64,000 nucleotides of DNA, taken from NCBI RefSeq assembly GCF_000222485.1, contig NC_015914.1, forward strand, positions 4,198,001 through 4,262,000. Reading direction: 5' to 3'. Position 1 is the first letter of the stretch. Each line of letters starts with the position of its first letter. The notes beneath the pieces are model-generated. The model made no database searches. It had not been told where the DNA came from and saw only the letters and a list, made by a program, of their open reading frames with translations. This stretch comes from Cyclobacterium marinum DSM 745 (GTDB lineage Bacteria; Bacteroidota; Bacteroidia; Cytophagales; Cyclobacteriaceae). Positions 46,276 through 62,986 of this stretch are shown piece after piece. Made by a program: the position numbers and the translations under genes.

Positions 46276-46304
46276 AGCTTCAAATCACAAAAGGAAATCT
46301 GGCT

Positions 46305-46380
46305 TGCATCCCTACGTTGGCATTATCCAAATCAGGTTTCGGGTATTTTCTCAGCCGGATTAAGTCCAGCACCCCGTGCA
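46305..46380 (-). promoter_or_regulatory. TPP riboswitch (THI element)
   Basis: Read on the minus strand the conserved blocks occur in order: CGGGGTGC, GGCTGAGA, ATACCC, GAAACCTGATTTGGATAATG and CCAACGTAGGGA. They form the P2/P3 pyrimidine-sensing arm and the P4/P5 pyrophosphate arm. TGCA at each end can close P1. It precedes a terminator and the operon 46221-43521, so thiamine pyrophosphate probably represses these genes. Confidence 0.95.
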
Positions 46381-46556
46381 TACAATAATGATTACAAAGA
46401 TATTCAATAACCCATGTAAAGCAAGCAGTCTTAACTATGGCTGTATGAAAGAGAAGCTGGAATTCTAAATTAATAAAGGGTAAAATAGGTGTATTTTTAA
46501 TATTTTCGATAAATTAGATAGTTGATTAATGATTTTTAAAATATAAGATTAAATAC

Positions 46557-57782: not shown

Positions 57783-57839
57783 ATTCAACCAAATACGGAT
57801 ATATTGTGCAATAATACTGCGCATATAAACGAGTTGAAC
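57783..57839 (+). other. attC-like site 1 (candidate cassette recombination site)
   Basis: A 57-bp imperfect palindrome. The outer arms are ATTCAAC (fits RYYYAAC) and GTTGAAC (fits GTTRRRY). The inner arms are ATATTGTGC / GCGCATAT with one unpaired base. The length equals the classical minimum for integron attC sites. The second repeat unit, at 62848, begins with the same GTTGAAC. Confidence 0.5.
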
Positions 57840-57971
57840 AAAACCTCCTACGTCGGTAGTTTTTCACTTTTCCTATATTAATTCTCTTATTTTCAGGCAT
57901 ATAGGTTATTTTTATTCCATGTTTAACTTTTAAACTTTACTTATCATGGAAAAAAAAGCCTACGTCAGCAG

Positions 57972-58781
57972 ATGTATCAGGAGATGCAGATCAGAAACTA
58001 CTCTCCCAGAAGTATCCAAAATTACATTTCCCAAGTATCACTAGTTTCCGGCCATTTTGAAAAAAGTCCCGACCAGATCAACCTATCCGAGCTAAAAGAG
58101 TATCTTTCTCACAAGATTGAGACAAAAAACCTGTCGGCCTCGAGCGTAAACCAGACTATCAGTGCGTTCAAAATTCTTTTTAGGGACGTTCTCGGCAGAG
58201 ACTGGAACCCGGTAAAGATCAAACGGCCCAGACGTCCTAAACCTCTTCCGGTCGTCTTTTCAAAAGAGGAGATATCCCATATCCTAGACGGTATTATAAA
58301 CAGAAAACACTATTGCCTGGTTGCTCTCACCTATGGCTCCGGCCTGAGGCTTGGTGAGGTGATTGGCCTTAAGTTTGGCGATATCGACAGCGACAGGATG
58401 CAGTTGAGAGTCCGCGGAGGCAAGGGAAACAAGGATAGGTATACTCTCCTTTCCATGGAACTGTTGGAAAAGCTACGAGAGTATTACAAGTACTACCGTC
58501 CCAAAACCTATCTTTTCGAAGGTCGTACGGCAGGTAAGGCATACAGCAAAAGGAGTGTCCAGGACCTGTTCAAAAAGATCCTTCTGCAAAGCAAGGTAAA
58601 GAAGGATGCCACTTTCCATACACTCCGGCATACATTTGCCACACATCTTCTTGAGCAGGGCACCAACATTAGGGTGATCCAAGAACTCTTGGGGCATAGA
58701 TCCCTGAGAACGACCTCGGTTTATCTGCATGTAACCAACTTCGATCCCTCGAAGATCAAAAGTCCTCTGGATAAGCTGTGA
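57972..58781 (+). CDS. tyrosine recombinase (site-specific integrase), copy 1
   Basis: A 269-residue tyrosine recombinase with an N-terminal SAM-like core-binding domain (about 5-85) and a catalytic domain (about 95-265). The catalytic residues are visible: Arg126 (GSGLRLGEV), Lys in GKGNKDR, His216/Arg219 (HTLRHTFATH), His242 (LLGHRS) and Tyr251 (TSVYLHV). The end SPLDKL resembles the SPLDAL end of integron integrases, but the extra internal domain of IntI is absent. Upstream, ATGGAAAAAAAAGCC at 57946 lies out of frame; with one more A it would add MEKKSLRQQ in frame. The stop overlaps the transposase start (TGATG). Such pairs with IS91-type transposases are known in Bacteroidota. Confidence 0.9.
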   Translation: MYQEMQIRNYSPRSIQNYISQVSLVSGHFEKSPDQINLSELKEYLSHKIETKNLSASSVNQTISAFKILFRDVLGRDWNPVKIKRPRRPKPLPVVFSKEEISHILDGIINRKHYCLVALTYGSGLRLGEVIGLKFGDIDSDRMQLRVRGGKGNKDRYTLLSMELLEKLREYYKYYRPKTYLFEGRTAGKAYSKRSVQDLFKKILLQSKVKKDATFHTLRHTFATHLLEQGTNIRVIQELLGHRSLRTTSVYLHVTNFDPSKIKSPLDKL

Positions 58782-59953
58782 TGGAAACGGCCAATAGCAG
58801 GAACTGTGGGGCGGAGCTTTCCGATATTCTGGGTTCCCAAAAGGAAAACTTTTTGGGAAAGGGGAGGCTATGCGCCGACCAGGCGAAGGCCTACAATGAC
58901 ATTCTAGACTGCAGGACTGCAAAAATGGGCAGTCATACCCTCACCTGCGACACCTGTGGCAAAAGCAGGGTAAGTTACAACAGCTGCCGTAACCGCCACT
59001 GTCCCAAGTGCCAGTATGTCAGGCAGCTTTTATGGGTGGAAAAGCTGCAGTGTAGGTTGCTCCCAGTTAGGTATTTTCACGTCGTGTTCACCATACCGAA
59101 ATTCCTCAAGCCCCTGTTCTATCTCAACCAGCGGGAATGCTACGGCATGCTCTTTGCCGCATCGGCCCTTGCGGTGAAGAAGGCAGCATCGAACCCTGCC
59201 TTCCTGGGGGTGGACAGTGGCTGCCTGTCGGTGCTCCATACCTGGGGACAGGCACTCAATTACCACCCCCATATCCACATGCTGGTGCCTGCCGGAGGGC
59301 CCGACCCCGACAACATGGAATGGATAGCTGCGAACAAAAAGTTTTTTGTGCCAGTGAAAGCCCTCTCAGGTATATTCAGGGGGGTATTCATGGAAAATCT
59401 CTTTCATGCCTTGCGGTCAAACCAGCTCAGGATACCTGAAAAACAGAAAGGGATGTACGCCACCCCGGAGCTTGTAAAAAAGGAAGCTTATTCGAAGTCC
59501 TGGCATGTCTATATCAAAAAAACGTTCAAAGGTACCAACCAGGTAGTTAGCTATCTAGGCAGGTACACCCACAGGGTGGCCATCAGCAACAGCCGGATAC
59601 ATTCTGTCGAAAACGGCACGGTAAAGTTCAGTTGGAAGGATTACAGGGACCGTAAAACCAAAATCATGGAACTTCCGTGCGGCGAATTCACTCGCAGGTT
59701 CATGCAACACGTCCTTCCAAGCGGATTTTACAAGATAAGGTATTATGGGATCATGTCATCGGCGAACAGCAAGACCAAAATGGAGGACTGTTTTAGGCTG
59801 CTGAAAGCGCCAAGGCTCATTTCCTTTTATGAGGGATTGTCGACCTATGAGATTTTGGAGGAAATACTGGGTCAGGACCCGTTCAGGTGTCCGGGATGCG
59901 AAACCGGAAAGATGATGTATGGCCTTGCTGAGGGGAAAGGAACAGACCCATAA
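58781..59953 (+). CDS. IS91-family HUH transposase, copy 1
   Basis: A 390-residue rolling-circle transposase (GTG at 58778 is an alternative start). The N-terminal zinc ribbon is CDTCGKSRVSYNSCRNRHC and CPKCQYVRQ. The HUH metal motif is YHPHIHMLVPAGG (about 170), and the catalytic Tyr lies in VVSYLGRYTHRVAISNSR (about 258-270). The C-terminal end CPGCETGKMMYG adds another Cys pair. Family members move as single strands and can mobilise neighbouring DNA by one-ended transposition. The start overlaps the recombinase stop. Confidence 0.92.
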   Translation: METANSRNCGAELSDILGSQKENFLGKGRLCADQAKAYNDILDCRTAKMGSHTLTCDTCGKSRVSYNSCRNRHCPKCQYVRQLLWVEKLQCRLLPVRYFHVVFTIPKFLKPLFYLNQRECYGMLFAASALAVKKAASNPAFLGVDSGCLSVLHTWGQALNYHPHIHMLVPAGGPDPDNMEWIAANKKFFVPVKALSGIFRGVFMENLFHALRSNQLRIPEKQKGMYATPELVKKEAYSKSWHVYIKKTFKGTNQVVSYLGRYTHRVAISNSRIHSVENGTVKFSWKDYRDRKTKIMELPCGEFTRRFMQHVLPSGFYKIRYYGIMSSANSKTKMEDCFRLLKAPRLISFYEGLSTYEILEEILGQDPFRCPGCETGKMMYGLAEGKGTDP

Positions 59954-60158
59954 GATCGCCCAAATAGCAAAGTTCTTTGAAATCATGGCTACAAATCAAA
60001 ACGCAGCAGGGCGTTAATGGGAAGGGACTGCCCCTACAGTATCCAAAACAACCAGAAGTCATCGGTTAGGGAGATCAAAACTGGGGTTCCTGGTACTAAA
60101 CACTCCAAACTCTCCCAAATAACGAAACATAAATGCCCATAGACAGGCCCCCGGTTTC

Positions 60159-60250
60159 GTCCAACTAAGTTTTAACCGCAATCTAAGGGACTCCACCTCA
60201 AATAGTTATTTTTTTTGGCTAGATTGCGTTTAAAACTCTTTACGTTGGCG
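60159..60250 (+). other. attC-like site 2 (candidate cassette recombination site)
   Basis: The outer arms are GTCCAAC (fits RYYYAAC) at 60159 and GTTGGCG at 60244. The inner 17-bp arms GTTTTAACCGCAATCTA (60169-60185) and TAGATTGCGTTTAAAAC (60220-60236) pair with one mismatch, around a 34-nt spacer. The right core is only a partial match to GTTRRRY. The 191-residue gene starts 12 bp after it, as cassette genes do. Confidence 0.5.
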
Positions 60251-60261
60251 AGCATTTAAAA

Positions 60262-60837
60262 ATGAACAACTCCGAAAATCACATTAATATCCTGCTTGAC
60301 AAGCGTGACAGTCGTTTTAAATCGTATCTGACTAGGCGACTAATTCAGATAGCTTGGTATTTGTTGTTATTAGGAACTCCGACCCTATTATTGGTTAAAA
60401 CAAACGGTCTTATTGCACTATACATTTTAATACCATTTATTATTTTTTGGTTGACGTGGGATTATCTTGAAGAAAGAAGATTTAAATACACTACCTTATT
60501 CCTCTCACTCAATTCAATAAAGGGCGAATTATATTCTGAGAATATTGATATAGAGAACAGAGAAAAAGTGATTACAGTAGACCTAAGTAAATGCACCGTA
60601 ATCCTTAAAGAACTCCGACTCGGTCAATTTTATGTTCCAGGCTATGAACTCTTAGTCAAACAAGGCTCAAAGGTTGTTTACAGGCAAAAGGACAGTTATG
60701 TAATAGCACGACTTGAGATTAAGGAAATTGCGGACAAATTAATTGACTACCAAGTTGAAAAAGGACGTCAGATAAAACCAATATCTCTATTCGAAAAAAT
60801 AAAAATTAAAATGAAAACGCTCGCCAACAATGGCTAA
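60262..60837 (+). CDS. small membrane protein, candidate cassette gene
   Basis: A 191-residue protein. Two hydrophobic helices lie at about 27-46 and 48-66 (IAWYLLLLGTPTLLLVK, LIALYILIPFIIFWLTW). A cytoplasmic-looking beta-rich domain (about 78-165, FLSLNSIKGELYSENIDIEN) follows, resembling PH-like membrane proteins. I know no function. Start and stop lie close to two attC-like palindromes, and the stop codon (TAA at 60835) is inside the left arm of the second, a typical cassette layout. No promoter is evident. Confidence 0.75.
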   Translation: MNNSENHINILLDKRDSRFKSYLTRRLIQIAWYLLLLGTPTLLLVKTNGLIALYILIPFIIFWLTWDYLEERRFKYTTLFLSLNSIKGELYSENIDIENREKVITVDLSKCTVILKELRLGQFYVPGYELLVKQGSKVVYRQKDSYVIARLEIKEIADKLIDYQVEKGRQIKPISLFEKIKIKMKTLANNG

Positions 60838-60938
60838 GAAAACATAGGGGTTGCTGTGCAGCCCGAAACGGTGGATTTTCTTACTTTGTTCTTGTCTCGG
60901 TCGACAAGAACGCAGCTCGAAATCCCCTACGTTTCTTA

Positions 60939-62839
60939 GTGTGCCAAGAATCAACCACGGCAATAAAAGGTTGAATGCTTTAAATAAGATGATGGTAGGT
61001 CCATCAGGGTCGTTGTATAGGCGATGGCTCTAAACCACCTAAAGGTGCTTTGATTAATAGTCTTGGTGCTGAGCGTTTAGGAGAATCTAGTCCAAAGAGG
61101 CTAGCAGGTACGAATAAAGGAGTTGAACGAAAGTAAACCATTGAAGAGGTGTCGAGAAGTAGGAACCCCCAGTCAAAAGCTACGAAGTATGATACGGAGT
61201 TAAAAGTGATGTTAGTGATAACATTAATTACAGAGTTAACCTATTTATCTTCTGTAAGGCTGGCGTCATTCAGATGGCAAGAACTTTATTCAGGCTTATT
61301 TACGGAACTTGGGAAACTACACACAAATGCCAAGGGAAATACACAATAAGATCAACTTAGAGGTAGAAAACCGATAGTGTGTGTAGAGACAGATTGACTT
61401 GTAATAGCGTTGAGATTTCTGTAATGGGAATGGAGCAAAGGGGTCAAGTTGTACAGTTACATTTTATTAACCAACTCATAAGAATGAGGATGAATTTATG
61501 GAATGAAACAAAATCAATACCTATAAGTCGCCAAATGGTTTGGGAGGCTTATCAAAAAGTGCGTTCCAACAAAGGGAGTGCAGGAGTTGATGCGATAAGT
61601 ATGGAAAAATTCGATGTGGACCGTAGAAAACATTTGTACAAACTTTGGAATCGTATGTCATCAGGGAGTTATTTTCCCCCAGCAGTCAAAGAAGTGGAAA
61701 TACCCAAGAAAGACGGTGCAGTCCGTAAATTGGGCGTTCCCACAATCAGTGACAGAGTTGGGCAGATGGTTGTCAAAATGTTCATTGAGCCAAGATTAGA
61801 GGCAATATTCAGTACAAACTCTTACGGTTATCGACCCAATAGAAATGCCCATCAGGCATTGTCAGAGGTACGAAATAACTGTTGGAAAAATAATTGGGTA
61901 ATTGACCTAGATATCAAAGGTTTCTTTGACAACATTGACCACAATAAACTGATGCTTGCTTTAGAGAAACACGTGCCTGAAATCTGGGTAAAACTCTATG
62001 TCAGACGATGGTTGGAAGCACCCGTTGTTACAGTATCTGGGCAACAAATCGAAAAGCAAGGAAAAGGAACACCACAGGGTGGAGTAATCAGCCCGTTATT
62101 AGCAAATCTTTTCTTACATTATGCTTTTGATAAATGGTTAGAAAAGATAGATAAAAATGTAGTTTTTACACGTTATGCCGATGATGTAATACTACACTGT
62201 AACACAAAATCCCATTCAGAACAAATATTACGATTGGTACATCAAAGAATGGAATCGGTAGGGTTAGAACTACATCCACAGAAGACAAAAATTGTCTATT
62301 GCCGAGATTTTAGAAGAAGAGGAAAATACCCAACAGTCAAATTTGATTTCTTGGGATATTCTTTTCAGCCAAGAACTGCCTACTCTAAGAAAAAGGGAAA
62401 GCTGTTTATAGGTTATGATTGTGCTATAAGTATAAGTTCAAGAAAACGAATTGCAGACAGGCTTGAAGAACTTAAGGTAAACAAACTTACTTTTAAAAGT
62501 ATTGTAGGGGTGGCTCAATTCCTTAATCCAATGATTAGAGGATGGGTGCATTATTATGGTAAATTTAAGATGTTTGAACTTACCAAAGTCTTCAGATTAT
62601 TGAGTAAGCGATTGGTTTGGTGGGCAAGGAAAAGGTATAAGCGATACAAAACCAGTATCAGGAAAGGTTACAAATGGTTAGCAAGAGTACGGAGTCAATA
62701 CCCCACCTTGTTTTACCATTGGCAATTTTCAGAAATAAATGTAGTAGCTTAGATTTGTACAACAAGAGCCGTGTGAAGGGAGACTTTCAAGCACGGTTCT
62801 GTGAGAGGCTTAGGGCGAAATTCCCTTTGCCTACTCGAT
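60939..62839 (+). mobile_element. group II intron, about 1.9 kb
   Basis: The 5' end is GTGTGCC, fitting the GUGYG consensus. Domain V is 62766-62799, 34 nt: GAGCCGTG / CACGGTTC with loop GAGA and a 2-nt bulge. Domain VI follows with arms GAG-AGGC / GCCT-A-CTC; the bulged A at 62833 is 7 nt from the 3' end CGAT at 62839. The intron ORF lies in domain IV. The joined exons restore a palindrome, which supports both borders. 60939-61400 is structured intron RNA without a gene. Confidence 0.9.
61424..62752 (+). CDS. ltrA: group II intron reverse transcriptase/maturase
   Basis: The frame is open from 61379 (GTG); I take the ATG at 61424, about 442 residues. The RT domain contains VRSNKGSAGVDAISMEKF, IPKKDGAVRKLGVPTISDRV, VIDLDIKGFFDNIDH, GTPQGGVISPLLANLFL and the catalytic FTRYADDVILHC. 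The maturase X domain follows (about 350-420, MIRGWVHYYGKF). It ends SQYPTLFYHWQFS without an HNH endonuclease domain, as in bacterial intron classes that use single-stranded or hairpin targets. It splices its intron and copies it into DNA. It is intact and probably functional. Confidence 0.93.
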   Translation: MGMEQRGQVVQLHFINQLIRMRMNLWNETKSIPISRQMVWEAYQKVRSNKGSAGVDAISMEKFDVDRRKHLYKLWNRMSSGSYFPPAVKEVEIPKKDGAVRKLGVPTISDRVGQMVVKMFIEPRLEAIFSTNSYGYRPNRNAHQALSEVRNNCWKNNWVIDLDIKGFFDNIDHNKLMLALEKHVPEIWVKLYVRRWLEAPVVTVSGQQIEKQGKGTPQGGVISPLLANLFLHYAFDKWLEKIDKNVVFTRYADDVILHCNTKSHSEQILRLVHQRMESVGLELHPQKTKIVYCRDFRRRGKYPTVKFDFLGYSFQPRTAYSKKKGKLFIGYDCAISISSRKRIADRLEELKVNKLTFKSIVGVAQFLNPMIRGWVHYYGKFKMFELTKVFRLLSKRLVWWARKRYKRYKTSIRKGYKWLARVRSQYPTLFYHWQFSEINVVA

Positions 62840-62986
62840 GCCGGGCCGTTGAACAAAACCTCCTACGTCGGTAGTTTTTCACTTTTCCTATATTAATTCT
62901 CTTATTTTCAGGCATATAGGTTATTTTTATTCCATGTTTAACTTTTAAACTTTACTTATCATGGAAAAAAAAGCCTACGTCAGCAG

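Follow-up and report, generated by a model that had tools for sequence, protein, structure and literature searches.

Two kinds of group II intron are close, in lifestyle or in class, to the intron described here. Homing to fixed sites occurs in all group II lineages except class C, and the targeting of attC sites and terminators has been assigned to class C (PMC4424553). The group IIC-attC introns, S.ma.I2 and its kin, insert into the bottom strand of attC at the R'' box (TTGT/T), antisense to the gene cassettes (PMC7923331). RmInt1 and RmInt2 of Sinorhizobium meliloti belong to class D (IIB3); according to PMC5894124 the RmInt1 maturase has no endonuclease (En) domain, and RmInt-type introns lie mainly in the lagging-strand template. 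The present intron resembles the former in its habitat and the latter in its maturase and ribozyme. Very probably it represents a mobile Bacteroidota lineage within the class D (IIB-like) group that has specialised in the attC sites of cassettes.

The intron lies in the window, by which we mean the whole 64,000-nt stretch analysed (positions 4,198,001-4,262,000 of a single 6.22-Mb contig), and its features are collected in Table 1. It is complete: start, RF01999 core, RF00029 domains V-VI and maturase are all present, and an AGC triad can be seen by eye in domain V. The borders named in the original prediction are backed by the GTGTG start, the placement of RF01999 and the RF00029 end, and the maturase is indeed devoid of an En domain, its profile matches being RVT_1 and GIIM only. 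The intron was also rightly placed within an arm of an attC, since it splits the L' box of the attC that ends a cassette. With the intron letters removed, CTTA^GCC faces GGCTAAG (60832-60838), the rebuilt GGCTAAG/CTTAGCC palindrome that had been foreseen, and outside this L box lie CGCCAAC as R'' and GTTGAAC as R', so that the span first noted, 60822-62854, runs exactly from R'' to R'.

The integron attC features are present in this site: R'' AAC and R' GTT cores, L box, spacers and hairpin. The cassette starts at 60244 with G/TTGGCGAGC, complementary over 10 nt to GCTCGCCAAC in its own R'', and start/R'' complements of 8-10 nt recur in further, successive cassettes of this array and in a second array at 1.85 Mb, which bears out the proposed cassette array. 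Our attC scan, which found nothing in locus L006, also gives mirror readings of these palindromes on the opposite strand; direction was set by the ORF. Neither Pfam nor NCBIfam yields a match to the cassette ORF at E 0.001.

Table 1. Coordinates within the window of the intron, its attC and cassette, and neighbouring elements
Feature	Position	Strand	Description
TPP riboswitch	46292-46386	-	
IS91-family element with Xer/IntI-like recombinase gene	57833..60244	+	GTT on both sides, own attC at its end; one of four copies
attC preceding the cassette	60159..60250	+	R'' GTCCAAC 60159-60165, R' GTTGGCG 60244-60250; palindrome and core complement
Intron-interrupted gene cassette	60245..62848	+	G/TTGGCGAGC ... 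own attC ... G/TTGAAC
Cassette ORF	60262..60837	+	191 aa; TAA stop 60835-60837 inside L''
5' attC part	60822..60938	+	R'' 60822-60828, L'' 60832-60838, imperfect hairpin, L' to CTTA
IBS1	60933-60938	+	TTCTTA, at the end of the 5' attC part
Group II intron	60939..62839	+	1901 nt, GTGTG (from 60939) to CGAT (at 62839); ribozyme matches RF01999, like class D RmInt1
Domain I core	60991..61109	+	Rfam RF01999 (D1-D4), 102.5 bits
Proposed EBS1	61188..61192	+	TATGA in loop GTATGATAC; proposed partner of IBS1, both sides changed in L064 and L068
Intron-encoded RT/maturase	61379..62752	+	457 aa from GTG; 438 aa from ATG 61436
Domains V and VI	62764..62839	+	RF00029, 66.7 bits; RF00029 end equals intron end
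3' attC part	62840..62854	+	L' remainder GCC, spacer GGGCC, R' GTTGAAC (62848-62854)

Relatives of the intron were gathered from a scan of named genomes (25 loci, 24 of them used, L072 being left out as a fragment without ends) and, in the case of L020, from 395 sampled genomes of the phylum. Together with the three copies in this genome they make 28 loci, of which 24 have a 5' exon, 20 a 3' exon and 16 both; L065, a truncated copy with an extra C before GTGTG, was excluded from the 5' count. The named relatives of the maturase are Bacteroidota, with members of the lineage in Gelidibacter, Mesonia, Arenibacter, Tenacibaculum, Cryomorpha and others, and the nearest is a 188-residue maturase piece from Cyclobacterium (95% identical), which points to a Bacteroidota host, as had been supposed. 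All 23 counted 5' exons have C at -4 and T at -2, 22 have A at -1, and position -3 varies between A (16) and T (7). On the other side GTT starts at +7 to +10 in 19 of the 20 3' exons, whereas a random position, calculated on six of these sequences, would have it there with a probability of 0.066; the lone misfit, L071, is a decayed copy in which GTA replaces GTT and was kept in the counts, as was L062, another site that speaks against the pattern. By the evidence of these exons the lineage inserts repeatedly at one exact spot of attC, on the top strand, in the L' box, 7-10 nt upstream of the R' GTT and in cassette orientation. The attC homing first proposed from a single locus is therefore a matter of repeated insertion, in three copies here and throughout the lineage, and not of accident.

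A later sample of 397 genomes, from the family of genome G198, added two members. One (L097, 72% identity) fits at both ends. The other (L098, 60% identical, no 5' exon), seen in the longer stretch L140:1-2251 of genome G866, is directly followed by a second, ORF-less RF01999 intron and then by ACCCAAACGTTGGC, an attC-like R' with GTT at +8 again. Among ten more distant relatives with clear ends, examined as a control, the C(A/T)T(A/T) exon end occurs in none, and GTT at +7 to +10 in one (L080, +10). In the L022/L075 group GTT is found by eye at +8 to +9; there, however, the introns follow other introns that lie in attC.

How the site might be recognised is suggested in part by the intron itself. 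UAUGA (61188-61192), in the loop GAAGTATGATACGG, is complementary to UCAUA at the exon end. Of the 23 copies compared, 13 can form all five pairs and 8 can form four of five, the window's own copy, with UCUUA, being one of the 8; the other 2 lack the loop motif. Both partners are changed in two relatives (UAUGC/GCAUA in L064, UAAGC/GCUUA in L068). We call this loop EBS1 because of these matched changes and because it sits where EBS1 lies in group IIB anatomy. Another candidate, TAAGA near intron position 50 (chosen by eye), was dropped, the matched changes being those of the 61188-61192 loop. As for EBS2, a GUAGG loop opposite CCUAC fits the window and does not fit L062, L064 and L020 (by eye), and we claim none.

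An EBS1 of about five bases is too short to single out attC, and so the hairpin or the sequence of the arm must help. It is possible that the intron practises plain sequence homing, EBS1, EBS2 and the maturase reading a long stretch of the arm and the hairpin playing no part, which would alter the mechanism only and leave the same attC target. Conservation reaches beyond the five IBS1 bases: 21 of 23 sites have A at -10, and as many have C at -9. The consensus of the arms in Bacteroidota sites is approximately C-C-G-C-N-A-C-T-A-Y-T-C-A-T-A, and class D introns such as RmInt1 do home to fixed sequences (PMC5894124). However, the arms vary among sites and no EBS2 that follows the exons could be seen by eye in the intron alignment, and we consider plain homing unlikely, though it deserves to be kept in mind.

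The stem extends across the junction. An inverted repeat lies immediately upstream of the short IBS1. Pairing of the final 20 exon nucleotides with the upstream arm was scored wherever both exons are available: shuffled arms average 13.4 (95th percentile 18, maximum 24), and the 16 sites score 14-25, 14 of them (not L054 and L062) above that percentile. When gapped pairing is summed over these sites, native 3' exons add more to the stem than swapped exons do (416 vs 383.8 +- 9.2; 1 of 5000 permutations as high), with zero gain in L055, L061, L062, L063, L064 and L067 and a gain of 2 in L060. An ungapped test at the junction gives 33 of 64 pairs, as against 25.0 +- 3.2 for swaps (14 of 2000 as high), with doubtful registers in the window, L061, L062 and L067; the latter three have no R''-anchored register, and the exon of L061 is cut by a contig end. 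Single-stranded DNA folds of this genome's three sites, with the exons joined, reach z = -2.69, -4.33 and -2.39 relative to shuffles. R'', R' and stem pairing outside the IBS are common to the sites of the lineage, but every attC possesses them, and so they do not discriminate between hairpin and sequence. Recognition of the hairpin by the intron is suggested by position and pairing and by analogy with IIC introns.

A second class D-like lineage was encountered in the family of G198 (L100-L108), with a GTGTGTCCTG start and 45-48% maturase identity. In eight of these nine loci GTT stands 13-15 nt upstream of the intron, and by eye L100, L106 and L107 lie in the bottom strand of attC. Arm pairing exceeds the 95th percentile of the null in L100, L103, L105, L106, L107 and barely in L108, and does not in L101, L102 and L104.

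The palindromes could also be terminators or ends of insertion sequences rather than attC sites. In keeping with this, nothing in the genome exceeds the TIGR02249 cut-off for an IntI integrase, as a complete integron would require, and nothing does in 14 control genomes either, a search that had no positive control; complete integrons are described as rarely reported in Bacteroidetes (PMC9024848). Against it stand the 8-10 nt start/R'' complements, the R''/R' cores, the chain of cassettes and an ORF that ends at the site, all of which make this reading very improbable. The interrupted site is a genuine attC, more than a mere palindrome.

A local substitute for IntI may be supplied by the IS91-linked recombinase, an Xer/IntI-like tyrosine recombinase that scores 212.2 with TIGR02249 (cut-off 265). 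Four copies of the IS91-family element (57833-60244 and 62848 to past 64000 in the window, L094, and L007/L096) share at least 99.7% identity across a core of 1,982 nt. Each starts with G/TTGAAC and ends with its own attC at G/TT, bounds that resemble those of a cassette, and three are preceded by a common leader, about 100 bp long, in which a short att-like hairpin can be seen by eye. An IS91-family transposase was found beside related recombinases (41-47% identity) in none of 24 loci, with flanks of up to 1.5 kb.

The original prediction assigned the intron to the IIC-attC type, and here the sequences disagree. Its maturase is 44% identical to that of RmInt1 and only 29-32% to two class C enzymes, 32% to an RT fragment on pRmeGR4b taken for a class E intron, and 34% to a stretch of LtrA (class ML). 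The RmInt1 anchor (L092) was taken from pRmeGR4b, and the class E anchor (L090) was taken for S.me.I4 on the basis of its plasmid and of PMC5894124, which places one RmInt1 copy and a disrupted class E intron on pRmeGR4b. In the maturase phylogeny that had been called for (54 sequences), classes C, E and ML split at 99.5/100 from the rest, which includes RmInt1 and the attC lineage, and the attC lineage splits from all others at 100/100; since classes A, B, CL, F and g1-g4 have no anchor in the tree, we use 'class D' for whichever group RmInt1 falls into among these sequences. The ribozyme models agree, RF01999 matching both the window (102.5 bits) and RmInt1 (113.7 bits), while the class E intron matches RF02005 and class C introns RF02001. 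By maturase and by ribozyme sequence the intron is class D (IIB-like) in this sense.

Presence in attC and the absence of an En domain are what an ordinary IIC-attC intron would show as well, and yet the class C maturase, the IIC ribozyme and the bottom-strand insertion at R'' (TTGT/T) are all missing. Maturase clade, ribozyme model, strand, box and target are each wrong for such an intron, and we rejected this membership as extremely improbable. Class D has no hairpin or attC targeting on record, in name the very outcome in which the attC idea was expected to fail; the class first assigned is given up, but the attC targeting is nonetheless real.

Introns of the IIC-attC kind can be seen, as a contrast, in genome G103 of the same bacterial class. 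Four RF02001 introns there lie in the bottom strand of attC (by eye), each after TTGT, and the 3' side, where seen (behind a second intron), begins with T; the maturases of two (L138 and L139) group with class C at 99.6/100. Their position is the one given for IIC-attC introns in PMC7923331. These bacteria thus harbour both modes, one on each strand. On a Persicobacter plasmid there is a fifth RF02001 intron, which starts with ATGTG and follows CAGTGT, not TTGT. We also observed tandem introns, in which a class D-like intron stands at the 3' end of an RF02001 intron in an attC-like site (L137, L138 and L139 in G103, L141 on the Persicobacter plasmid); the RF02001 partners in L138 and L139 are the class C introns just mentioned.

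The genome carries three full copies of the intron, the other two differing from that of the window at 4 and 1 of 1,901 positions. They occupy the same position in three dissimilar attC sites with unlike flanks, the junctions reading TTTCTTA^GCCGGGCCGTT, GCCATA^TGCAAACCGTT and ATTCTTA^TACTTAACGTT, with GTT 8 nt downstream in each. The attC type of the second copy also has an intron-free paralogue, located close to the third copy. It reads GCCATATGCAAACCGTT, with GCCATA^TGCAAACCGTT continuous across the junction, in agreement with the prediction. For the window's own attC a pattern search of the genome with up to 3 mismatches found no empty allele, and its 5' arm occurs a single time in the genome. 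A 59%-identical maturase fragment with a stop (L004, C1:1846514-1846942) lies 3.2 kb away from the third copy's maturase gene. That one attC insertion was merely copied with its cassette or by a flanking IS91-like element is barely credible, although the arrays do contain duplicated segments and the IS91-like element four times: the three intron copies differ in attC site and in flanks, and named relatives from at least five genera occupy further, different attC sites.

We propose the following for this class D lineage, whose splicing and mobility are predictions. The lariat RNP would reverse-splice into the top strand of a single-stranded attC, the hairpin 5' of the site and the conserved arm bases at -10/-9 supplying the specificity that a long EBS2-IBS2 pairing provides elsewhere. 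The maturase would then copy the intron, and as it has no En domain it would have to borrow a primer from replication. The attC would be broken by the insertion, and the cassette should become fixed in place. If the origin lies at dnaA (108-1487) and the terminus opposite, the sense strand of the intron would be the leading-strand template at both arrays, two places only, in contrast to the lagging-strand preference described for RmInt-type introns.

This lineage adds a second intron class to those that reach attC, and it does so on the other strand from the one that the known integron-targeting introns use. We lean slightly towards the view that hairpin/attC targeting arose more than once, a Bacteroidota class D lineage having dropped the long EBS2-IBS2 pairing and come to read the top-strand hairpin at L'. 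A class D lineage faithful to attC would mean that the attC lifestyle arose outside class C too. The pair of classes, class D on the top strand and class C on the bottom, offers a tractable system for asking how a complex of ribozyme and RT reads a DNA hairpin, and Bacteroidota cassette arrays, so seldom reported with a complete integron, host several intron lineages.

In the literature on group II introns and integrons, at the level of titles and the starts of abstracts and with subscription papers mostly outside, we found no class D lineage in attC. The group IIC-attC introns resemble the present one in inserting into attC behind a hairpin, in their short IBS1 and in their En-less maturase; they differ in class, strand, box and orientation, the window intron being class D-like, in the top strand, in L' after UC(A/U)UA and sense to the cassette. 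RmInt1 shares 44% of its maturase residues and the same Rfam D1-D4 model, and RmInt1 and RmInt2 differ in their canonical targets, ISRm2011-2 and ISRm17 rather than attC (PMC5894124). Other non-IIC introns at attC are described from halophile cassette arrays, namely UHB.I2 (IIB1/CL1) and H.ha.F1/F2 (class E); these are of other classes, one full intron and two truncated, and UHB.I2, sense to the cassettes, stands just after attC rather than in L' (PMC7923331, Sonbol and Siam 2021). Finally, a top-strand group IIC case cited in PMC7923331 is like ours in strand and cassette orientation, and differs in being IIC and a single case.
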